From Saururus chinensis (Eukaryota; Streptophyta; Magnoliopsida; Piperales; Saururaceae): a stretch of 64,000 nt of DNA. The DNA lies in assembly GCA_035235625.1 (NCBI GenBank), contig CP141148.1:5699001-5763000 (forward strand), written 5' to 3'. The position numbers and the translations under genes were made by a program. Under the pieces are notes generated by a model that saw only the letters and a program-made list of their open reading frames with translations, ran no database searches and was not told where the DNA came from. Numbering within the stretch: the stretch's first letter is position 1; the number at the start of each line of letters is the position of its first letter. Shown piece by piece: positions 15,120-58,807 of this stretch.

Positions 15120-16108
15120 TATGGTGTGCCCCTAAATCAAAATAGATTAGATTAGATCCCTACTTTAGGTTAGATTTGATTCTCTTTCTAATTCCTAATA
15201 CTTATATTCCTTATTTAGTTAAAATTAGATTAAAGACTGTCTCCTAGTTCTATTAACATTAGTTTAAATTTTCTTTATATATTGTGTACTTCAGAGAATA
15301 TTAACATTTCAAAAAATCAAAATCAAGTTGGTCGGTCTACACCAAATTAAGTAATATATTTTTTTCTAAAGTATTTATATTTATGTGATTAATATAATAG
15401 GGCTAGAGTTATGTCCGATTTTGTTTATTTAACCCTTTTTTAGTTATTAAATATCAAGTGTTAAATTATAATTTTATGCATATTAATTATCATCAGTGGC
15501 TTCATATAATTATCACATTTCAATCAATTGGGATTGGCGGTATGGACTAATAATGTTTGAACTACTTATCTATATGTCATCATTAAAGTTTTACTTTAAA
15601 AGTCGTCTAATAATAATACGAGCAACTTCTAGCGGTGGTAGTTGCTGTAATTAAAGATAACACTCAAACTGTAAATAACAGTAATGAAATTATAATAACT
15701 ATGAATGTAATAATATTAATTGACAATAATAAAAAACTAAGAAGAACAAAAATCACATATCTATTGTTACCTAATGATAAGATGGTCCTTAATTACATGT
15801 TGGCGTTCATCAATTAGTCACAAAAAAGATTAATGAAACTTATATATATGTATTTACTTTATACCAAAACATAATAGCATGTATTTGGAAACCAATTGAT
15901 CATGAAATAAGCAGTGTTGTGCCTTTTTTTTAAAAAAAAAATATTTTATAAGGTGGGGTTTTTGCTTGGACCCCTACTAGCTCATTAATATGAGGGATAT
16001 ATAAAAAGGTGTCTGGGGGGGACGTTAAAGCCTTACCCCAAAAAAAAAGACATGTCATAAACCAAAACTAAGAAAATATTTACATCACTACTAGTCAAAT
16101 GCAAACTC

Positions 16109-17518
16109 TCACACTACTACCACGTCAGGCAAGACTTTTATTAATGAGGATATGTCATCATCTTCTGAGACTTGATCTCCATGGGCAATCGCAGTGTCTT
16201 CTTCAATTTCTAGTGCCATAATTGAGAGTATGCCATTATTTTCTACGTACTCAAACAACTTCTCTAAATAAGCTTCTTCAGTTTCAGGTAATTGATCTCC
16301 ATAGTCAATTGCAGGAATTTCCATAATGTCTAGTTCCACTAGTTTAGTGATGGAATGTAAGTCTTCAGCAATGGTAGTGTGAGATGCTCCTTCCGATGCA
16401 GGGAATTGATATCCATTGGCAGTTTCAGGGTTTTCCAACATGCCTAGTTCCCTATGTTCGCTGATGGCCGGCAAGTCTTTCCAGATGGTAGTGTGAGGTG
16501 CTCCTTCCAATGCAGGGAATTGAACTCCATTGGCAGTAGGGTTTTTCAACACGCCATAGTTCCCCTTGTTCTATGTTGGCTGGCAAGTCTGTAGAGATGG
16601 TAGTGTGAGATGCTTCTTTCAATACAAGGAAGTGATCTCCATTGACAGTTGCAGGGTTTTCCAACATACCTAGTTCCCCTTGTTTAGAGATGATAGTGTG
16701 AGATGCTTCTTCCAATGCAGGGAAGTGATATCCATTGATAGTTGCAGGGTATTCCAACATGCCTAGTTCCCCTTGTTCGGTGATGGCCAACAAGTCTGTA
16801 GAGATAATAGTGTGAGATGCTTCTTCCAATGCAGGTAAGTGATCTCCATTGACAGTTGCAGGGTATTCCAACATGCCTAGTTCCCCTTGTTCGGTGATGG
16901 CTGGCAAGTCTGTAGAGATGATAGTGTGAGATGCTTCTTCCAATGCAGGGAAATGATCTCCATGGGCAGTTGCAGGGTTTTCCAACATGTCTAGTTCTCC
17001 TCGTTCATTGGGCAACTCTTCAACCATGGCAAGAAGGGCTTCTTCAAATCCTACTTCTCTTACATCGAGCCCTACCTGCCGATGTCTTATCTTACACAGA
17101 ACTACTTCCGCAAATTTTCCCACGTACAGGAATCAAAAGTTTAGAATAAGTTAGCTGAAAGAGATTTACAAATACGGCCACACAAGACATATTGATTCAA
17201 CCAAGTATAGGTTAGTTAAACTCTTCGTATATATGTTTTAGTATGAACTCACATTATTATCACGAGATGAGAGAGTGAATTCCTGCATGATCCAATTAGT
17301 CTTTTGAACACGTCCATCAACGTTTCGGTGGAATTTGAATGCCCCTATCTCGCCAATTAATCTACCATCTCTGTCATGCACCAGCTTCTTCCCGGCGATC
17401 TTATAGAACCCATTGCCAGCTTTTCTGCTTGCATTTTTGCCATTGCCTTCCCTTGCCATCTGAATTCTGCTAGAGAAATAATAACGTTCGTCCATCCACG
17501 CATTAGGACCATCAGCCC
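16109..17518 (-). pseudogene. 5'-truncated double-NAC gene copy (block L1)
   Basis: The copy keeps exon 4 (17,518-17,253, 266 nt, same length and splice sites as the intact genes), encoding MDERYYFSSRIQ through KTNWIMQEFTLSSRD. It also keeps exon 5 (17,123-16,109), beginning VGKFAEVVLCKIRHRQ and continuing as 37-39-residue acidic repeats. A frame change near 16,550 (GGAACTATGGCGTGTTG in place of GGAACTAGGCATGTTG) splits exon 5 into 17,123-16,452 and 16,552-16,109. The second frame still ends in the normal tail (EEAYLEKLFEYVENN). Exons 1-3 are absent. Upstream the sequence is instead fused, inside the intron, to a repeat-tail fragment from another copy. It therefore cannot make the double-NAC protein, although an exon 4-5 transcript is conceivable. 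Confidence 0.85.
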
Positions 17519-17588
17519 CTAATTAGAGAACAATGCAACAGTCAATTATCATACACATTTGATAAAGAATAAAAAACCCAATAAAGTC

Positions 17589-18256
17589 TGAGGCGACGGT
17601 AGTGTGAGATGCACCTTCCAATTCAGGGAATTGATTTCCATGGGCCGTTGTAGGGTTTTCCAACATGCCAAGTTCTCTTTGTTCAGTGATGGTCTGCAAG
17701 TCTTCCGCAAGGATAGCGTGAGATGCTCCTTCTGATGCAGGGAATTGATCTCCATTGGCATTTGCAGGGTTTTTTAACATGCCTTCTTCCCCTTGTTCAG
17801 TGATGGCCGGCAATTCTGTGGAGATGGTAGTGTGAGATGCTCCTTCTGATGCAGGGAATTGATCTCCATTGACAGTTGCAGGGTATTCCAACATGCCGAG
17901 TTCCCCTTGTTCGGAGATGGCCGGCAAGTCTGTAGAGATGATAGTGCGAGATGCTTCTTCCAATGCAAGGAAGTGATCTCCCAGCGTGTTTAGTTCTCCT
18001 AGTTCATCGGTCAACTCTTCAACCATGGCAAGGGCTTCTTCAAGTTCTATTTCTCTTACATCGGGCCCTAATTGATCTCCATTTGCAGTAGGGTTTTCCA
18101 ACATTCCTAGTTCCCCTTGTTCTGTGATGGCCGACAAGTCCGTAGAGATAGTGTGAGATGCTTCTTCCAATGCAAGGAAGTGATCTCCATTGATAGTTGC
18201 AGGGTTTTCCAACATGCCTAGTTCCCCTTGTTCGGTGATGGCCAACAAGTCTGTAG
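17589..18256 (-). pseudogene. Repeat-tail fragment of a NAC gene fused to intron sequence
   Basis: Read on the minus strand, this is an open frame of C-terminal repeats (GELGMLENPATINGDHFLAL and relatives, plus one LGPDVREIELEEALAMVEEL module). It corresponds to 49,327-50,003 in the right half. It begins directly in the satellite array (…GAAAGGTAAT/CCTACAGAC near 18,256). It ends after GTCGCCTCAGACTT, where it runs into intron DNA (TATTGGGTTTTTTATTC) of the L1 gene. No NAC exon precedes it. The junction marks the edge of the 6.7-kb deletion on this side. Confidence 0.85.
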
Positions 18257-21972: not shown

Positions 21973-24825
21973 TCACACTACTGGCAGGTCAAGCAACATT
22001 TTTATTGATGAGGATATGCCATCATCTTCTGAGACTTGATCTCCATGGGCAATCGCAGTGTCTTCTTCGATATCTACTGCCATAATTGAGAGTATGTCAT
22101 TATTTTCTACGTATTCAAACAACTTCTCTAAATAAGCTTCTTCAGTTTCAGGTAATTGATCTCCATAGTCAATTGCAGGAATTTCCATAATGTCTAGTTC
22201 CGCTTGTTTAGTGATGGTCTGTAAGTCTTCAGCAATGGTAGTGTGAGATGCTCCTTCCAATGCAGGGAATTGATATCCATTGGCAGATGCAGGGTTTTCC
22301 AACATGCCTACTTCCCCTTGTTTGCTGATGGCTGGCAAGTCTGTCCAGAAGGTAGTGTGAGATGCTTCTTCCAATGCAGGTAAATGATCTCCATGGGCAG
22401 TGGCAGGGTTTTCCAACATGGCTAGTTCTCCTCGTTCATTGATCAACTCTTCAACCATTGCAAGGGCTTCTTCAAATCCTAGTTCTCTTACATCGGGCCC
22501 TAATTGATCTCCATTTGCAGTAAGGTTTTCCAACATGCTTAGTTCCCCTTGTTTTGTGATGGCCAGCAAGTCCATAGAGATGGTGTGAGAAGCTTCTTCC
22601 AATGCAGGGAAGTGATTTCCATGGGCAATTTCAGGGTTTTCCAACATGCCTAGTTCTCCTCGTTCATAGGGCAACTCTTCAACAATGGCAAGGGCTTCTT
22701 CAAATCCTACTTCTCTTGCATCGGGGCCTACCTGCCGATGTCTTATCTTACACAGAGCTACTTCCTCAAATTTTCCCACCTACAGGAATCAAAAGTTTAG
22801 AATAAGTTAGCTGAAAGAGATTTACAAATACGGCCGCAAGACCTATTCATTCAACCAAGTATAAGTTAGTTAAACTCTTCATATATATATTTTTGTATGA
22901 ACTCACATTCTTATCACGAGATGAGAGAGTGAATTCTTGCATGATCCAATTAGTCTTTTGAACACGTCCATCAACGTTTCGGTGGTATTTGAATGCCCCT
23001 ATCTCGCCAATTAATCTACCATCTCTGTCATGCACCTGCTTCTTCCCTGTGATCTTATAGAACCCATTGCCAGCTTTTCTGCTTGCATTTTTGCCATTGC
23101 CTTCCCTTGCCATCTGAATTCTGCTAGAGAAATAATACCGTTCGTCCATCCTCCCATTAGGACCATCAGCCCCTAATTAGAGAACAATGCAACAGTCAAT
23201 TATCATACACATTTGGTAAAGAATAAAACACCCAATGAAGACTGATTGCTTAATCTAATAGCAGATGTTTCAAGAAGATGAATGAAATAGCTACCAGTGA
23301 GGGCCCATGGCTCCATGTCGTAAACTCTTTTATCTTCAACAGCATCAGATGGGAGTGGAAGATCATCAACCTTTCTTTGGAGATAACGTCGAAGGAGTTC
23401 ATATGGGGTGGGCTTAAACCTATACCCCAGCGGCAGATATGCATAGTGCGAGGGAAGCAGGTTTTGCTCACCATCGTCATCAGGAAGTATTATCAGATCA
23501 TCATCCTCGTCCTCATCTTTCCCTGGTCTGCACTTGATTTTGCATATGGCATATGTCTGAAACTGCACAAGGGTTTCGGCCCAAGAATCCGTCAAACATC
23601 TTTTGTTACGTACTTGAAGATTAAACAAAATTCAATTGTTGATTGCAATATTATTTCTATTGCAATCAAGTTGAAAGAAGCGAAACAAAATTATTCAAAG
23701 GTGAACATATTATTTAGCACTAAACCTAACTTGGCACGTGACCCACGTATGAACATATTATTTAGCACTAAACCTAACTCGGCACGTGACCCACGTATGA
23801 TTCTTCTTGAATAGAAAGGAAAAGAAACTTTCCTAATATTAATAGGGAAAGAAACTTTCATAAAACTATAGTGTAAACTTGGCACGTGACCCATGTATGA
23901 AATTGTGATTCTTCTGTAATAGAAAGGGAAAGAAACCTTCCTAATCATAACTATGTAGTTATCTCAGCTAATAACTATTATTATCTTTTCATTATCATAA
24001 TTAATTACTGCTACTTCTCATATCAAGAAAAATAAAATTAGGCAATGCAACTTTATAAGAAGAGGTTATATATAAATACATATATATAGGCAAACAGATT
24101 AATGAATGATTAAGGCACTAATAAACTATGGCATAAGCAACGCAAGCTGGGGTTAGAAGAGAACATATATATATTTTGAGAGCAGAGGCCTGGCAAAAAC
24201 ATACAGAAGCAAAAATACGTAGAGAAAAGATGAAGTCTTGAATTGAAAGACGAACAAACCAAGTTAATACAAAGGGTAGCACATCAATGTATACGACTAA
24301 CAAATATAGGTTACCTTTGGATCGTCTTTCCTTGTAATTAGCGTATATTCATCCATGATCCAGTGGGTTCTGTTGCCCTTCTTCTTGCTGGAACCATCGC
24401 CCTCACCGTCGGTGAAATAAACAAAAGCTCTCTTCTCGGCTTGACCATCGCCGTCGGAGATGCTCTTCGGCTTTTGGGTTGCACTCCAGTGGCCCTTCCC
24501 CGCCCGCCGGTCTGGTCTTCTTCCATACCCCTTATTTCTGGTGCTGAAATAGTACCGAGCACCCCCAATTCTTGAACACTAGTCCCTTCCGGCACCTTAA
24601 TCAGAAAAGAAGTTAAGAACATGAGGCCAGGGAAAAAGAAGACATGCATTACGTAGCTGGCATGAGTGATATATTACCAGTCAGAAGCCATGGTTCTCCA
24701 GCGTAAACGTTGTCGGAGACGATTGGATAGCAGGGAATCGCGCCTTTAACTTGACAAACTTTGAGCAGCTCCCGGACGAGCATGGCGTCTGATGGATCAA
24801 ATCGGAACCCTGCATGGTATGCCAT
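21973..24825 (-). CDS. Double-NAC-domain transcription-factor-like protein, left copy (about 589 aa, 5 exons)
   Basis: Predicted exons on the minus strand are 24,825-24,678, 24,595-24,315, 23,562-23,295, 23,172-22,907 and 22,779-21,973. All have GT-AG borders and consistent phase, starting at ATG 24,825 and ending at a stop before 21,973. NAC proteins are nuclear plant transcription factors. Here a first NAC domain (residues about 4-160: GFRFDP, GEPWLLTG, RYYFSTRN, GHWSATQ, THWIMDEYTL, YAICKIK) is followed by an acidic linker (KDEDEDDD). A second NAC domain follows (about 186-337: LPLGYRFKP, MEPWALTG, RYYFSSR, GFYKITGK, TNWIMQEFTL, VALCKIRHRQ). The tail is acidic, with 37-39-residue repeats (ELGMLENP…GDHFPALEEASHTI). 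The usual WKATG motif is altered in both domains. The 1-kb scale repeat tail differs in module order from the right copy. Exon model is inferred; transcripts are not seen. Upstream TATA and intronic G-boxes are listed separately. Confidence 0.82.
23735..23888. promoter_or_regulatory. Three CACGTG G-boxes in NAC intron 2 (left copy)
   Basis: GGCACGTGACCCACGTATGA occurs at about 23,733 and 23,781, with a variant (CCATGTATGA) at 23,881; CACGTG cores lie at 23,735, 23,783 and 23,883. The first two sit in a roughly 50-bp tandem duplication (AACATATTATTTAGCACTAA…). Each also carries CACG/CGTA words like the NAC core site. Function is inferred only. Confidence 0.45.
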
Positions 24826-42687: not shown

Positions 42688-45545
42688 ATGGCATACCATG
42701 CAGGGTTCCGATTTGATCCATCAGACGCCATGCTCGTCCGGGAGCTGCTCAAAGTTTGTCAAGTTAAAGGCGCGATTCCCTGCTATCCAATCGTCTCCGA
42801 CAACGTTTACGCTGGAGAACCATGGCTTCTGACTGGTAATATATCACTCATGCCAGCTACGTAATGCATGTCTTCTTTTTCCCTGGCCTCATGTTCTTAA
42901 CTTCTTTTCTGATTAAGGTGCCGGAAGGGACAAGTGTTCAAGAATTGGGGGTGCTCGGTACTATTTCAGCACCAGAAATAAGGGGTATGGAAGAAGACCA
43001 GACCGGCGGGCGGGGAAGGGCCACTGGAGTGCAACCCAAAAGCCGAAGAGCATCTCCGACGGCGATGGTCAAGCCGAGAAGAGAGCTTTTGTTTATTTCA
43101 CCGACGGTGAGGGCGATGGTTCCAGCAAGAAGAAGGGCAACAGAACCCACTGGATCATGGATGAATATACGCTAATTACAAGGAAAGACGATCCAAAGGT
43201 AACCTATATTTGTTAGTCGTATACATTGATGTGCTACCCTTTGTATTAACTTGGTTTGTTCGTCTTTCAATTCAAGACTTCATCTTTTCTCTACGTATTT
43301 TTGCTTCTGTATGTTTTTGCCAGGCCTCTGCTCTCAAAATATATATATGTTCTCTTCTAACCCCAGCTTGCGTTGCTTATGCCATAGTTTATTAGTGCCT
43401 TAATCATTCATTAATCTGTTTGCCTATATATATGTATTTATATATAACCTCTTCTTATAAAGTTGCATTGCCTAATTTTATTTTCTTGATATGAGAAGTA
43501 GCAGTAATTAATTATGATAATGAAAAGATAATAATAGTTATTAGCTGAGATAACTACATAGTTATGATTAGGAAGGTTTCTTTCCCTTTCTATTACAGAA
43601 GAATCACAATTTCATACATGGGTCACGTGCCAAGTTTACACTATAGTTTTATGAAAGTTTCTTTCCCTATTAATATTAGGAAAGTTTCTTTTCCTTTCTA
43701 TTCAAGAAGAATCATACGTGGGTCACGTGCCGAGTTAGGTTTAGTGCTAAATAATATGTTCATACGTGGGTCACGTGCCAAGTTAGGTTTAGTGCTAAAT
43801 AATATGTTCACCTTTGAATAATTTTGTTTCGCTTCTTTCAACTTGATTGCAATAGAAATAATATTGCAATCAACAATTGAATTTTGTTTAATCTTCAAGT
43901 ACGTAACAAAAGATGTTTGACGGATTCTTGGGCCGAAACCCTTGTGCAGTTTCAGACATATGCCATATGCAAAATCAAGTGCAGACCAGGGAAAGATGAG
44001 GACGAGGATGATGATCTGATAATACTTCCTGATGACGATGGTGAGCAAAACCTGCTTCCCTCGCACTATGCATATCTGCCGCTGGGGTATAGGTTTAAGC
44101 CCACCCCATATGAACTCCTTCGATGTTATCTCCAAAGAAAGGTTGATGATCTTCCACTCCCATCTGATGCTGTTGAAGATAAAAGAGTTTACGACATGGA
44201 GCCATGGGCCCTCACTGGTAGCTATTTCATTCATCTTCTTGAAACATCTGCTATTAGATTAAGCAATCAGTCTTCATTGGGTGTTTTATTCTTTACCAAA
44301 TGTGTATGATAATTGACTGTTGCATTGTTCTCTAATTAGGGGCTGATGGTCCTAATGGGAGGATGGACGAACGGTATTATTTCTCTAGCAGAATTCAGAT
44401 GGCAAGGGAAGGCAATGGCAAAAATGCAAGCAGAAAAGCTGGCAATGGGTTCTATAAGATCACAGGGAAAAAGCAGGTGCATGACAGAGATGGTAGATTA
44501 ATTGGCGAGATAGGGGCATTCAAATACCACCGAAACGTTGATGGACGTGTTCAAAAGACTAATTGGATCATGCAGGAATTCACTCTCTCATCTCGTGATA
44601 ATAATGTGAGTTCATACGAAAATTTATATATGAAGAGTTTAACTAACCTATACTTGGTTGAATCAATAGGTCTTGTGGCCGTATTTGTAAATCTCTTTCA
44701 GCTAACTTATTCTAAACTTTTGATTCCTGTAGGTGGGAAAATTTGAGGAAGTAGTTCTGTGTAAGATAAGACATCGGCAGGTAGGCCCCGATGCAAGAGA
44801 AGTAGGATTTGAAGAAGCCCTTGCCATGGTTGAAGAGTTGCCTTATGAACGAAGAGAACTAGGCATGTTGGAAAACCAGGCAACTGTCAATGGAGATCAA
44901 TTAGGGCCTGGTATAAGAGAAATAGGATTTGAAGAAGCCCTTGCCATGGTTGAAGAGTTGACCAATGAACGAGGAGAACTAGACATGTTGGAAAACCCTT
45001 CAATTGCCTATGGAGACCACTTCCCTGCATTGGAAGAAGCTTCTCACACCATCTCTATGGACTTGACAGCCATCACAGAACAAGGGGAACAAACCATGTT
45101 GGAAAACCCAACTGCAAATGGAGATCAATTAGGGCCCGATGTAGGAGAAATAGGATTTGAAGAAGCCCTTGCCATGGTTGAAGAGTTGACCAATGAACGA
45201 GGAGAACTAGCCATGTTGGAAAACCTTGCAACTGCCCATGGAGATCATTTACCTGCATTGGAAGAAGCATCTCACACTACCATTGCTGAAGACTTACAGT
45301 CCATCACTAAACAAGCGGAACTGGACATTATGGAAATTCTTGCAATTGACTATGGAGATCAATTACCTGAAACTGAAGAAGCTTATTTAGAGAAGTTGTT
45401 TGAATACGTAGAAAATAATGACATACTCTCAATTATGGCGGTAGATATTGAAGAAGACACTGCGATTGCCCATGGAGATCAAGTCTCAGAAGATGATGAC
45501 ATATCCTCATCAATAAAAATGTTGCCTGACGTGCCACTAGTGTGA
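42688..45545 (+). CDS. Double-NAC-domain transcription-factor-like protein, right copy (about 591 aa, 5 exons)
   Basis: Predicted exons are 42,688-42,835, 42,918-43,198, 43,950-44,217, 44,340-44,605 and 44,733-45,545, all GT-AG and in phase (1,776 nt). NAC-1 spans residues about 4-160. Exon 1 has AGFRFDPSD and exon 2 RYYFSTRNKGYG, HWSATQ at 85-90 and THWIMDEYTL at 126-135. Exon 3 opens with FQTYAICKIKCRPGK, the last NAC subdomain, then KDEDEDDD, then begins NAC-2 with LPLGYRFKPTPYELL at 186. Exon 4 has GFYKITGK at 269-276 and KTNWIMQEFTL; exon 5 starts VGKFEEVVLCKIRHRQ. Residues 338-591 are acidic repeats of two module types (MLENP…ALEEASHTI and LGP…GFEEALAMVEEL) and a unique tail with EEAYLEKLFEYVENN. 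NAC proteins bind DNA as dimers through this fold; two domains in one chain could act as an internal dimer (inference). I chose this ATG because it precedes subdomain A by only three residues and follows a TATA box. Confidence 0.85.
43624..43777. promoter_or_regulatory. Three CACGTG G-boxes in NAC intron 2 (right copy)
   Basis: CACGTG at 43,624-43,629, 43,724-43,729 and 43,772-43,777 in TACGTGGGTCACGTGCC contexts (the first is ATGGGTCACGTGCC). Mirror of the left copy. Confidence 0.45.
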
Positions 45546-49222: not shown

Positions 49223-50195
49223 TTATAACAATGAATGAGAAGAAGTAGACATGTTGGAAAACCTTTCAACTGCCTATGGAGATCACTTCCCTGCAGCATT
49301 GGAAGAAGCATCTCACACTATCATCTCTACAAACTTGTTGGCCATCACCGAACAAGGGGAACTAGGCATGTTGGAAAACCCTGAAACTATCAATGGAGAT
49401 CACTTCCTTGCATTGGAAGAAGCATCTCATACCATCTCTACAGACTTGCCGGCCGTCACAGAACAAGGCGAACTAGGAATGTTGGAAAACCCTACTGCAA
49501 ATGGAGATCAATTAGGGCCCGATGTAAGAGAAATAGAACTTGAAGAAGCCCTTGCCATGGTTGAAGAATTAACCGATGAACTAGGAGAACTAAACACGTT
49601 GGAAAACCCTGCAACTGTCCATGGAGATCACTTCCTTGCATGAGAAGAAGCATCTCACACTATCATCTCTACATACTTGCCGGCCATCTCCAAAAAAGGG
49701 GAACTTTGCATGTTGGAATACCTTGCAACTGTCAATGGAGATCAATTCCCTGCATCAGAAGGAGCATCTCACACTACCATCTCCACAGAATTGCCGGCCA
49801 TCACTAAACAAGGGGAAGTAGGCATGTTGGAAAACCCTGCAAATGCCAATGGAGATCAATTTCCTGCATTAGAAGGAGCATCTCACGCTATCCTTGCGGA
49901 AGACTTGCATACCATCACTCAACAAAGAGAACTTGGCATGTTGGAAAACCCTACAACGGCCCATGGAAATCAATTCCCTGAATTGGAAGGTGCATCTCAC
50001 ACTACTGTCGCCTCAGACTTGCATACCATATACACTGAACAGGGGGAGCTTGACATGTTGGAAATTCCCGGAACTGACTATAGAGATCAATTTCTTGCAG
50101 TGGATGAAGCTTATCTAGAGAAGTGGTGGTCACACTCAGAACAGGATGACATATTCTTTTCAACAGAAGAGTTGCTTGACGAGGGAGTAGTGTGA
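49223..50195 (+). pseudogene. Repeat-tail fragment of a third NAC gene copy
   Basis: This copy has only C-terminal coding sequence. Acidic repeats (AALEEASHTIISTNLLAITE, LGMLENPETINGDHF, LGPDVREIELEEALAMVEEL…) lead to a distinct tail, EEAYLEKWWSHSEQDD…STEELLDEGVV. One in-frame stop (TGA in place of TTG at 49,641) lies inside. It starts directly from the satellite array with no NAC exons, so no complete product is possible. The tail (LEKWWSHSEQ) differs from the intact genes (LEKLFEYVEN), showing a separate paralogue. The left half retains only its first two thirds (17,589-18,256). Confidence 0.85.
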
Positions 50196-50209
50196 GACTT
50201 TTTCTTTGA

Positions 50210-50372
50210 CTAGTAGTGGTGTAAATATTTTCTTAGCTTTGGTTCATGACATGTATTCTTTATGGGGTGGTAGTGGTGTATTCTTTATGGGGTAATTCAT
50301 GACATGTATTCTTTATGGGGTAGTAGTGGTGTATTCTTTATGGGGTAGTAGTGGTGTATTCTTTATGGGGTA
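50210..50372 (+). repeat. Short tandem repeat TTCTTTATGGGGTAGTAGTGGTGTA
   Basis: Four to five near-identical units of about 27 bp (TTCTTTATGGGG then TAGTAGTGGTGTA), just after the stop of the repeat-tail fragment. Confidence 0.8.
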
Positions 50373-53600: not shown

Positions 53601-56573
53601 ACAAGTGTTCATCAAGTCGGGGGATGAACATGTATATGCGTACTTAAGAGGTTCTACATAATAAAACTTGCATACAAAAAACCATACTAGAGTCCCTCTT
53701 TATATAGTAGGGTAGGAGGCTATCAAGGCTATACAACAGTGTCCTCCTTAGTATCCACATCACTTTTCATTCTTATATATTCTTGTTTTCTCTTGTTAGC
53801 CCCTTATGATTCATTTTTGGAGTTGTAGGTGTCATCCTCTTCTTTGTAGGGATAAATGGTTAGAAATGTTTGGACAAAAAACAAAGGAGAAAGATTGCTA
53901 ATGAAGTGACAGAGGCCAACAATCACTAGATGAAAATCAGAATTTGCTCCTTATGGGAATCATCTCACGAAATTTGCAAATTGCCATTGAGCTCAACCTC
54001 TTGTGTCGTTGTGACGGGTCAACTCCTGCTACAGGGGTATTTTTGTTTGATTATTTCAAAATTTCTTGCAAACCTTGGTTCTATGGAATATTTTTCATAA
54101 AACTAGGGAGTATGATATATTTGCATCTTAGACTAAGTAATATGGAAAAAATCTCAAAAGGTAATAGTTGAAAAAATATGGAATGTAAAATTTCGAAATG
54201 GAGAACCGGAATCACCTTGTGAGGTAATTCGGTGATTTTGTCGGAATTGAGTTTGAATCTTTATTCCAACATATTTTTTAATTCTATAATACTCTATATC
54301 CAACCACAATTTCTAATAAAATTATGGTGGAATCCTAGAACAATGATCTAGCCAAACATCTTTTGAAGAGTCTCTTGTGTACCTATATCTCACTCATTTT
54401 TATTTTAAATTTTTGATAAAATATCTTACTCATTTTCAATGAGACCAAGGGGTGTGGAGAATCATAAAAGCCTGCTTTTGCCGTGTCCAAGATTGAAGCA
54501 AAAGATTTTTGCAGGACATCAAAGCTACATATCGATGTCCCCTCATATTTTTCCTAGTTTGAAAAGTAGATGGACATTGTAATTTTCTTCCTTTTCTTTT
54601 GATCTAACTCATGCAGTCATTCCTTATTTTTTTTGTTTTTTTAATAAATTGAAATGTTATCGAGCGAAAAAAGGAAAAGAGATCCCTAACCATATATGTT
54701 AAGGAGAATATTGTTAGAAGATTTTTATATTTTTAATCTATATATGGAGGAATTATTTGGTACTACTGTAGTACTACATGGGAGATACTCCCACTTTATA
54801 AGTCCCATATATTGATTATCCAGATCAAGCACAAGGCAGAGAGCTAATAAGATATCTCACTTGTGCTAATGTGTGTTAGTGTGTTTACTATTAATCTTGA
54901 AGAGGAACTCCCAAAGGTTACTTAAGAAGTACTCAATAGTTTCTCCTACATATGAGAAGAATTCTGCTGTGTTGGCGAGGCTGCAAGCCACATGAGCAAT
55001 CATTGTCCAACCATGGTCCCAAGAGATGGGACAGAAAAGTTTTTTATGCTCCTCTATGACAATAAGCCCAATGTAAGTTAAGCACGGGAGCCGTCCATCT
55101 ACGAGATCGATGGTGCACACGTTAATATATGTATCACTTATACTAATGTGCGGAGCATGGGAACTCCTCTGAGATTGGATTAAGGAGTATAGAAAGAGGA
55201 CTCTCCATATAAAGGATCCAAAATGGAGAAAAATGGCTAGGAATACTACAGCCAACCCAACCAGCCTAACCCACAACCATACAATAAAAAAGGTTAGGGT
55301 GTGGGTCTAAAAAATTTTTCCTGAAAAAAAAGTCTTATGTAACCCGTGTAACCAAACCATAACCCATTTTTAACTTTTAAAATGCCACTTATAGCAACAT
55401 GTCAAGAATATATTAAGTAATTTAAGTATTCCAGAAAGATAAACATCTTAAAAAATGTTTGAGTGACCTTGACTGTCACAAGTAAAAAATTAGCCCTAAA
55501 CTCATCAATGTTGTTAAAATAATGAGAAGTAGAGTTTTAAAGTGTAAAAATTAACGTCATTACTCAAACATTTTCTACATATGGATTTCTTTCCTGCAAT
55601 AACAAAGAAAATAGAACTAAAATTTTCATGGCACTCAAATTCCCCTCTAAATTCTTTTATTCCCCAGCCCTACCAAGATAAGGTATAAATTAAATATAAC
55701 TTTAACAAAAAAAAAACTCAATTGAAGAAAAAAAATATGGTTACCCTCAACTCGTCCTAAGTAGGATTAAAATTTTAACGTCAACCTGTGTAATGAATAG
55801 GGTCAAGATGCAACCCTCCTTAGGGTCAAGGCCAACCAGACCGTGATCCCAGTCCTAGGCCGCAAATTGTGCGCCTCTCTCAATTTAGTGGTACGCTTTC
55901 CATCCGGCCTCAAGTAGCCTGGGGGCTGCAGTACACATGCGATGCACAAGCTAGCACATTAAAAATCCTTCCTATAGAAACATCCTCCTTGTATAACAGA
56001 TGACAATCAGAAAAAGGTTCCCCACAATCTAAATAAAGGTCAGCTCACATTTATTGAACGAAAAAAATTAATTTATAAATTCGTACATAAATTTCAGTCT
56101 GAAATATACACCAAATTAAGAAAACCCAATTCCAAACAGAAGACAAGATTCCTATGTGAGAAATGGCATTAAAACCACATTACTATTATACTATAAAGAT
56201 ATTTGAAGAATATACAATACGCATGAGAAAATCTGAAACCACCAACGCAAGCAGAAGAAGCCCCACCGGAGTATTCACTTCTTCAACACTGTCAAATGAA
56301 AAAAGAAAACGACATTAGAACAATGTGCTCTGCCATTTACTGTGCTAGAAACCGAAAAATAGTTATATGTTTCGTTCAGCCTTATATTAGTGTTTTTTAG
56401 ATTTGCATTTGCCTTGTCCAGCTGCAATGAAGTGCATTGACAAGCAAATAAATCTTCTACTAAGATCTTGCCAGTATGTTTTCACATGGAATTTGTATTA
56501 TCATTTTGAGAATGAGTCACATGGTGATATAAAATACCCGTTGGCAACCCCATATGGAATTTGTATTATCATT
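53601..56573. other. Right-half-specific stretch, no gene supported
   Basis: AT-rich sequence missing from the left half. The largest open frame (55,276-54,866, minus, 136 codons) begins MWVRLVGLAVVFLAIF, hydrophobic at the N-terminus, with no family resemblance. Its surroundings (CATGGGAGATACTCCCACTT, near 54,776) look repeat-derived. I do not call it. Confidence 0.4.
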
Positions 56574-57893
56574 ACGATATGGAGCCATGGGCCCTCACTG
56601 GTAGCTATTTCATTCATCTTCTTGAAACATCTGCTATTAGATTAAGCAATCTGTCTTTATTGGGTTTTTTATTCTTTACCAAATGTGTATGATAATTGAC
56701 TGTTGCAATGTTCTTTAATTAGGGGCTGATGGTCCTAATGGGTGGATGGACGAGCGTTATTATTTCTCTAGCAGAATTCAGATGGCAAGGGAAGGCAATG
56801 GCAAAAATGCAAGCAGAAAAGCTGGCAATGGGTTCTATAAGATCACCGGGAAGAAGCTGGTGCATGACAGAGATGGTAGATTAATTGGCGAGAAAGGGGC
56901 ATTCAAATACCACCGAAACGTTGATGGACATGTTCAAAAGACTAATTGGATCATGCAGGAATTCACTCTCTCGTCTTGTGATAATAATGTGAGTTCATAC
57001 GAAAATATATATACAAAGAGTTTATCTAACCTATACTTGGTTGAATCAATATGTCTTGTGTGGCCGTATTTGTAAGTCTCTTTCAGCTTACTTATTCTAA
57101 AATTTTGGTTCCTGTAGGTGGGAAAATTTGAGGAAGTAGTTCTGTGTAAGATAAGACATCGGCAGGTAGGGCCCGATGTAAGAGAAGTAGGATTTGAAGA
57201 AGCCCTTCTTGCCATGGTTGAAGAGTTGCCCAATGAACGAGGAGAACTAGACATGTTGGAAAACCCTGCAACTGCCTATGGAGATCATTTCCCTGCATTG
57301 GAAGAAGCAAGCATCTCACACTATCATCTCTACGGACTTGCTGGCCATCACCAACCGAGGAGAACTAGGCATGTTAGAATACCCTCCAACTGTCAATGGA
57401 GATCACTTCCTTGCATTGGAAGAAACATCTCACACTATCATCTCTACAGACTTGCTGGCCATCACCAAACAAGGGGAACTAGGCAAGTTGGAAAACCCTG
57501 CAACTATTAATGGAGATCACTTCCGTGTATTGGAGGAAGCATCTCACACTCTCAACTCTACAGACTTGCCGGCCAACACAAAACAAGGGGAACTAGGTAT
57601 GTTGGAAAACCCTATTGCCAATGGAGTTCAATTCCCTGCATGGGAAGGAGCATCTCACGCTACCATCTGGAAAGACTTGCCGGCCATCAGCGAACAAGGG
57701 GAACTAGGCATGTTGGAAAACCCTAAAACTGCCAATGGATATCAATTCCCTGCATCAGAAGGAGCATCTCACACTACCATTGCTGAAGACTTATAGACCA
57801 TCACTAAACAAGTGGAACTAGACATTATGGAAATTCCTGCAATTGACTATGGAGATCAATTACCTGAAACAGAAGAAGCTTATTTAGAGAAGT
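56574..57893 (+). pseudogene. 5'-truncated, frameshifted double-NAC gene copy (block R2)
   Basis: It retains the last residues of exon 3 (YDMEPWALTG, ending 56,600), exon 4 (56,723-56,988, 266 nt, with ERYYFSSRIQMAREGNG, GFYKITGKK and TNWIMQEFTLSSCD) and exon 5 from 57,118 (VGKFEEVVLCKIRHRQ). A 4-bp gain near 57,310 (GAAGCAAGCATCT for GAAGCATCT) shifts the frame, and a stop follows SHTTIAEDL at 57,796. The sequence remains recognisable to LPETEEAYLEKLFE before it breaks at a poly(C) run. Exons 1, 2 and most of 3 are absent, replaced by unrelated DNA left of 56,574. This is the counterpart of L1 (16,109-17,518). Confidence 0.85.
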
Positions 57894-57914
57894 TGTTTGA
57901 ATAAGTAGAAAATA

Positions 57915-57930
57915 CCCCCCCCCCCCCCCC
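57915..57930 (+). repeat. Poly(C) run of 16 at a deletion junction
   Basis: Sequence passes from GTAGAAAATA (coding tail) straight to C16 and AAGATACCTTTTTATATG. In the intact copy these are separated by about 225 bp containing the stop codon and GTCCCCCCCAGACACC. Confidence 0.8.
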
Positions 57931-58807
57931 AAGATACCTTTTTATATGTCCCTTATATTAATGAGCTAGTAGGGGTCCAAGCAAAAACCCCACCTTATAA
58001 GATGTGTTTTTTCTAAAAAAAATGGCACAACACTGCCTATTTCATGATCAATTGGTTTCCAACTACATGCTATTATGTTTTGGTCTAAAGTAAATACATA
58101 TATATAAGCTTCATTAATCTTTTTTGTGACTAATTGATGAACACCAACATATAATCAATGACCATATTATCATTAAGTAACAATAAATATGTGATTTTTG
58201 TTCTTAGTTTTTTGTTATTGTCAATAAATATTATTACCTTCATAGTTATTATAATTTCGTTACTGTTATTTACAGCTAGTGTTATCTTTAATTACAGCAA
58301 CTACCACCTCTAGAAGTTGCTCCAATTATTATTAGATGACTTTTAAAGTGAAACTTTAGTGATGACATATAGATAAGTAGTCCAAACATTATTAGTCCAT
58401 ACTGCCAATCCCAATATATGAAATTAATATCTATAAAATTATAATTTAACATTTGATATTTAATAACTAAACAAGGGTTAAATACATTTAAAGGCACACT
58501 AGAACAAAATCGCACATAATTCTTGCCCTATTTTATTAATCACATAAATATAAATACTTTAGGAAAAATATATTACTTAATTTAGTGTAGACAGACCAAG
58601 TTGGTTTTGATTTTCTGAAATGTTAATCTTCTTTGAAGTATACAATATATAGATAAAATCTAAACTAATGTTAATAGAATTATGAGATAGTCTTTTATCT
58701 AATTCTAACTAAATAAGGAATATAAGTATTATGAATTAGAAAGGGAATCAAATCTAACCTAAAATACGAATCTAATCTAATCTATTCTAATTTAGGGGCA
58801 CAACATA

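Follow-up and report, generated by a model that had tools for sequence, protein, structure and literature searches.

NAC factors act as dimers. Where a single protein carries two NAC domains, one may therefore ask if its second copy serves as an internal partner or has been altered. Proteins of this type are already known, if little studied, and the accessible part of one survey records them from no fewer than 77 of the 160 species covered (PMC7147800); the double-domain column of its Table 1, as far as that table could be consulted, has no entry for Eucalyptus grandis, Phaseolus vulgaris or Coffea canephora and gives 2 for Vigna radiata. The available portions of other reports give two double-NAC proteins among 147 NACs in foxtail millet (PMC3654982), eight among 488 sequences in wheat (PMC6402696) and one, PmNAC098, in Prunus mume (PMC6209978), while tandem-NAC proteins are named as an atypical class in the portions of three further papers that we could consult (PMC10651149, PMC12175250, PMC5054944). 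An earlier note on the locus described here, made from its DNA, had called a protein with two NAC domains unusual, a view that these counts do not bear out. In the partial descriptions through which the known tandem-NAC proteins could be compared, they resemble ours in having both NAC domains at the N-terminal end. As they are mainly counted in the surveys, so far as the accessible text of these goes, we suggest that they be read domain by domain, as is done below.

The gene under consideration lies in a window of 64,000 nucleotides (C9:5699001-5763000), the whole stretch of DNA that was analysed, and its relatives were sought in the entire genome (516 Mb, 11 contigs). We read it, with a probability of roughly 0.7, as a five-exon gene for an atypical tandem-NAC factor, belonging to an old family that was made once and whose halves have since specialised, the second domain (NAC2) being the main one and the first (NAC1) being altered. 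It adds an old, asymmetric family to a type that is already known, and it answers part of the above question from sequence: the doubling is ancient, took place a single time and has become asymmetric.

Gene structure and domain architecture

The spliced model (42688-45545, + strand) comprises five exons with a 1770-nt CDS encoding 589 aa and no internal stops; its introns of 82, 757, 122 and 127 bases are all GT-AG and lie in phases 1, 0, 1 and 0. Exon 1 (42688..42835) begins at the ATG and encodes subdomains A-B of NAC1, and the same sequence recurs in two further loci of this contig, L009 and L010. Exon 2 (42918..43198) encodes NAC1 subdomains C-D, where GHWSATQK replaces the usual GYWKATGxD, and is separated by the phase 0 intron 2 (43199..43955) from exon 3 (43956..44217), which contains the end of NAC1 (TYAICKIKCR), an acidic linker some 30 aa long and the beginning of NAC2 (LPLGYRFKP...PWALTG). 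Exon 4 (44340..44605) encodes NAC2 subdomains C-D, with GFYKITGKK, and exon 5 (44733..45545) encodes NAC2 subdomain E (VVLCKIRHRQ) followed by an acidic tail up to the stop.

The anatomy of the product is NAC1, a short acidic linker, NAC2 and an acidic, repetitive tail. With the domain boundaries used here, the linker is 31 aa long on C9 and 21 aa in the related genes on C10. The tail is a 120-bp coding repeat (44795-45251, 3.9 copies) and has 63 D/E versus 9 K/R among 253 residues. Exon 5 varies in length among the paralogues, with 270 aa in the gene under study, 308 in L010 and 268 in an inverted copy within the window.

Searches with hmmscan recovered the Pfam NAM domain (PF02365) twice along the full-length protein (7.1e-47). 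Each half is also recognised by itself, NAC1 with 78.8 bits (6e-22) and NAC2 with 87.3 bits (1.5e-24), both beyond the curated NAM cut-off of 27 bits. The two domains are 34% identical to each other (58/170 columns, E 6e-19) and their introns occupy matching places, in phase 1 after PWxLT and in phase 0 before subdomain E, which are also the usual places in NAC genes; subdomain E itself is present. Most of what the earlier note had drawn from the letters stands: its coordinates and motifs are correct, the five exons join in consistent phase, the NAC1 end and the NAC2 start share exon 3 with no stop between them, the introns are similarly placed in both copies, both domains are full-length, and the two NAM matches that it expected of a domain search are found in the predicted spliced protein. 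L009, L010 and the C10 gene L016 likewise encode an N-terminal pair of NAC domains within a single open frame.

By sequence, ANAC019 (1ut4) is the same domain as NAC1 (E 1.1e-12) and as NAC2 (E 1.9e-18). The solved NACs ANAC019, SNAC1 and NAC92 (1ut4, 3ulx, 7xlj) are matched by both domains and show the same subdomain order, but they have one domain each, whereas our protein has two.

Copies on the same contig and on others

The genome was searched with NAC1 and with NAC2 as queries, and the copy numbers given here are lower bounds. Six longer loci were modelled on C9, three of which (the gene under study, L009 and L010) are full-length and open from exons 1-4 through the tail stop. Among the others is a second, inverted version of this five-exon gene, also inside the window (21976..24825, - strand), which has a TAG stop in exon 2 and stands head to head with the intact gene, about 18 kb apart; its intron 2 shows no base differences, only a one-base gap. 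The remaining two are L011, without exon 2, and L012, from which exon 1 and the greater part of exon 2 are missing. The other C9 pieces, L024 among them, are partial: within the window these are the end of exon 3 with exons 4-5 and a stop in the tail (56572..58330, + strand), copies of exon 4 with tail pieces (15612..18233, - strand) and a fragment of the exon 5 tail (49239..50268, + strand).

On C10, four longer loci were found (the first gene of L015, L016, L017 and L018), of which L016 is the sole intact model, with 447 aa, five exons, phases 1, 0, 1 and 0, and NAM in two stretches. The first L015 gene carries a stop within NAC2 subdomain E, no exon 1 is recognised in L017, and L018 combines a stop with losses; the second L015 locus is a fragment, as are L019 and L022. 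Over the aligned part, the genes of L015-L017 are about 50% identical to the C9 protein, and the tail of the C10 group, 112 aa long in L016, differs from the one on C9. The gene on C11 has both domains, with exon 4 of NAC2 split by a transposon-like insertion of about 3.4 kb (L021:4758-8184). This is flanked by 8-bp target duplications, CAGCCGGC, at L021:4758 and 8177, and when the flanks are joined the empty site gives an in-frame reading through NAC2. The insertion has an open frame with DUF4371, which together with such ends we take to suggest an hAT-type element. Partial copies were also recovered on C3 (L013) and C5 (L023). The broken loci on C9, C10 and C11 indicate that the double-NAC family often decays.

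Probably one gene rather than two

The recurrence of the layout at unlinked loci rules out a one-off assembly join. It also bears on the proposal that two single-NAC genes have been wrongly joined, because the identical exon fusion is seen in C9, C10 and C11. No in-frame ATG precedes NAC2 in the open sequence leading up to it, and the modelled exon 3 before NAC2 similarly has none in L016 and in the C11 gene, so that all three lineages agree. Moreover, L016 has an intron 2 of just 214 bases, which leaves scant space for a terminator and a promoter, and a NAC1 without exon 3 would have no subdomain E. What the proposal has in its favour is that the frame would end after five codons ('VTYIC') if intron 2 of the C9 gene were retained. 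Given the missing ATG, the common exon fusion and the short intron of L016, we reject two separate genes as very improbable. Within the one-gene reading, retention of intron 2 might give rise to a NAC1-only isoform without subdomain E.

Origin of the doubling

The exon layout can be compared with that of 48 further NAC loci in the genome, which were modelled with a single-domain query. Their first intron is in phase 1 in 45 of 48 cases, and the second, where modelled, is in phase 0 in 15 of 18. This single-NAC layout is the parent layout, so that the double gene corresponds to two standard NAC structures joined; exon 3 of the first NAC, after subdomain E, appears to be fused to exon 1 of the second. 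A second pass over the 48 fetched stretches, with the first model masked and a threshold of 80, recovered a second NAC domain in none of them, with three double-NAC controls scoring 127-128. Hidden doubles among the supposed single NACs are thereby ruled out within the fetched stretches.

A maximum-likelihood tree was computed for 56 domains, namely 45 singles (L002, L003 and L065 having been dropped), six NAC1 and five NAC2. It covers all 14 single-NAC loci matched by the NAC1 query and 19 of the 26 matched by the NAC2 query, the seven outside it being six that were not fetched and the dropped L002. Each of the three sets, singles, NAC1 and NAC2, is separated from all other rows by a single branch (100/99, 98/95 and 98/90, respectively). 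The pattern held in a repeat tree of 52 rows, for which seven rows were removed and three PDB NACs brought in (100/99, 99/94 and 99/95). Independent doubling, with NAC1 and NAC2 held together, is rejected for C9 (p-AU 2.8e-7) and for C10 (p-AU 2.3e-6), which rules out a recent lineage-specific duplication in either. As the sampled NAC1 copies form one clade and the NAC2 copies another, and separate duplications on C9 and C10 are rejected, the trees point to a doubling that is ancient and happened a single time. Long branches are flagged in both trees, and a sister relationship between NAC1 and NAC2 is therefore less certain than a single early doubling.

That qualification matters for a different origin, in which two unlike NAC genes were fused instead of one being duplicated. 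The identity of just 34% between NAC1 and NAC2 would suit such a fusion, which we nonetheless regard as distinctly unlikely in view of the placement of 45 of 45 singles beyond the 100/99 branch, with NAC1 and NAC2 together on its other side, and of the same result in the repeat tree; this sampling comprises part of the NACs of the genome plus three PDB NACs, and long branches could produce the grouping. An origin by internal duplication and fusion, as the earlier note proposed, is thus favoured by the gene model, the NAM matches and the trees. The family would go back to one early event, in which exon 3 of one NAC copy became joined to exon 1 of a second copy.

Residue asymmetry between the two domains

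The two halves of the predicted proteins differ from each other at residues that single NACs keep. Positions 85, 88 and 96 in ANAC019 are reported, from its structure, to contact DNA. Residues were numbered after ANAC019 by alignment to the 1ut4 chain, with an offset that places Arg19 and Glu26 as they are named in the accessible part of PMC11644316, which also assigns Arg19-Glu26 salt bridges their role in the NAC dimer. Among the single NACs, K96 and G99 are present in 45/45 and E26 in 44/45. In the six NAC1 rows, each site being missing from one, the counts are S96 5/5, Q99 5/5 and E26 0/5. In the NAC2 rows they are E26 5/5, G99 5/5 and K96 4/5; the fifth row, that of C11, runs into the insertion at 96-99, and the corresponding empty site, GYWKMNGG, keeps the K and the G. 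NAC2 has its own departures from the canon, with Asn85 in four of the five rows and Tyr95 and Ile97 in C9. As three C10 rows are near copies of one another, the pattern rests on three lineages.

In the C9 gene itself, compared with ANAC019, SNAC1 and NAC92, NAC1 has S/Q for K96/G99 and lacks Glu26, and in NAC2 N replaces R85 and Y replaces W95. The WKATG core is thus not intact in either domain: NAC1 has the S/Q pair, and NAC2 keeps K96 and G99 with Y95 and I97. For NAC1 this weakens the claim to DNA binding of the typical NAC kind, and it leaves the membership of the protein among the NACs unaffected. At the dimer sites, NAC2 has both Arg19 and Glu26, and NAC1 has Arg19 and Met26. Arg19 is kept by both domains in the C9 gene, L015 and L016, and C11 NAC2 has Ala19. 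In the accessible portions of the double-NAC literature surveyed, no description of such an asymmetry was found.

Selection and decay

The C9 gene and L010 differ by six synonymous and no nonsynonymous changes over 336 codons; a hand calculation from site counts puts the chance of all six being synonymous under neutrality at about 1 in 10,000. Compared with L009, differences number 1/757 in intron 2, 0/957 in exons 1-4 and 23/813 in exon 5. As conservation of the C9 introns roughly equals that of exons 1-4, these copies are young or homogenised and give only a weak measure of selection. In these codon comparisons, from which L011 was left out, NAC2 of the C9 gene differs from that of the inverted copy by two synonymous and three nonsynonymous changes, and from that of L012 by four and two.

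At greater distances, the C9 gene and the C11 gene give a dS of 0.76-0.91 and a dN of 0.37-0.40 in the two domains, and C9 versus C11 a dN/dS of 0.44-0.49 (the NAC2 values including a few codons inside the insertion); synonymous sites are near saturation against C10. Within C10, L015 and L016 are separated by 5.8 synonymous and 9.2 nonsynonymous changes in NAC1 and by four and none in NAC2, and the pairs with L017, in whose model the first codons are doubtful, have dN/dS values of 0.72 and 0.59 in NAC1 and of 0.58 and 0.30 in NAC2. Judged by the dN/dS of the C9-C11 and C10-L017 pairs, selection is relaxed. NAC2 looks like the more constrained half among the C10 copies, though the constraint is weak.

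These figures raise the prospect that the C9 gene is a recent, functionless copy of a decaying family, open merely because it is young. We consider this unlikely: open copies persist on C9 (three) and on C10 (one), the changes relative to L010 are all synonymous, and the frames of C9 and of L016 are open despite the near-saturated synonymous sites between them. The points that lend it some weight are the many broken copies inside and outside the window, the about equal likeness of the C9 copies in exons 1-4 and in introns, and dN/dS values that are not low between the older lineages or within C10.

Predicted function of the two halves

Transcription, DNA binding and a division of labour between the halves are predicted for this protein. 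After the doubling the halves would have specialised, with NAC2 staying the more canonical. By retaining the WK-TG core (YK-TG in C9) and the dimer Glu, NAC2 would be the main dimerising and DNA-binding half. NAC1 has WSA[T/S]Q as its core and has lost the Glu, and from these changes we infer that it is tethered to NAC2 as a partner and would modify specificity, affinity or protein contacts. The regulatory (activation) region would be the acidic tail.

How the chain dimerises is a further matter. The earlier note had envisaged a covalent, built-in dimer, an idea that is weakened by the absence of Glu26 from NAC1, as a NAC1-NAC2 pair could form at most one of the two salt bridges within a chain. 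That both NAC domains within a single chain fold against each other as a covalent pseudo-dimer is, in our estimate, rather doubtful: the reciprocal bridge is missing in 5/5 NAC1 rows holding the site and C11 NAC2 has Ala19, even if one intrachain bridge could form from NAC2 Glu26 and the Arg19 of both domains in the C9 gene, L015 and L016, and even if linkers of 21 aa (C10) and 31 aa (C9) connect the domains. Two NAC2 domains of two molecules could, going by their residues, form both Arg19-Glu26 bridges. We tentatively propose, at somewhat less than even odds, that NAC1, with its fixed Ser/Gln and without the dimer Glu, is a covalently attached non-canonical partner, such that the chain would dimerise via NAC2 and NAC1 would read DNA or bind a partner differently. 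Residues 96, 99 and 26 (ANAC019 numbering) offer precise sites for testing this.

A separate observation concerns intron 2 of the C9 gene (757 bases), in which a 48-bp tandem duplication (43712-43810) occurs along with three CACGTG palindromes. Of the eight CACGTG occurrences in the window, six fall in intron 2 of this gene and of the inverted copy (43615-43810 and 23735-23888). The cluster is possibly a regulatory element, or else the outcome of chance and duplication.
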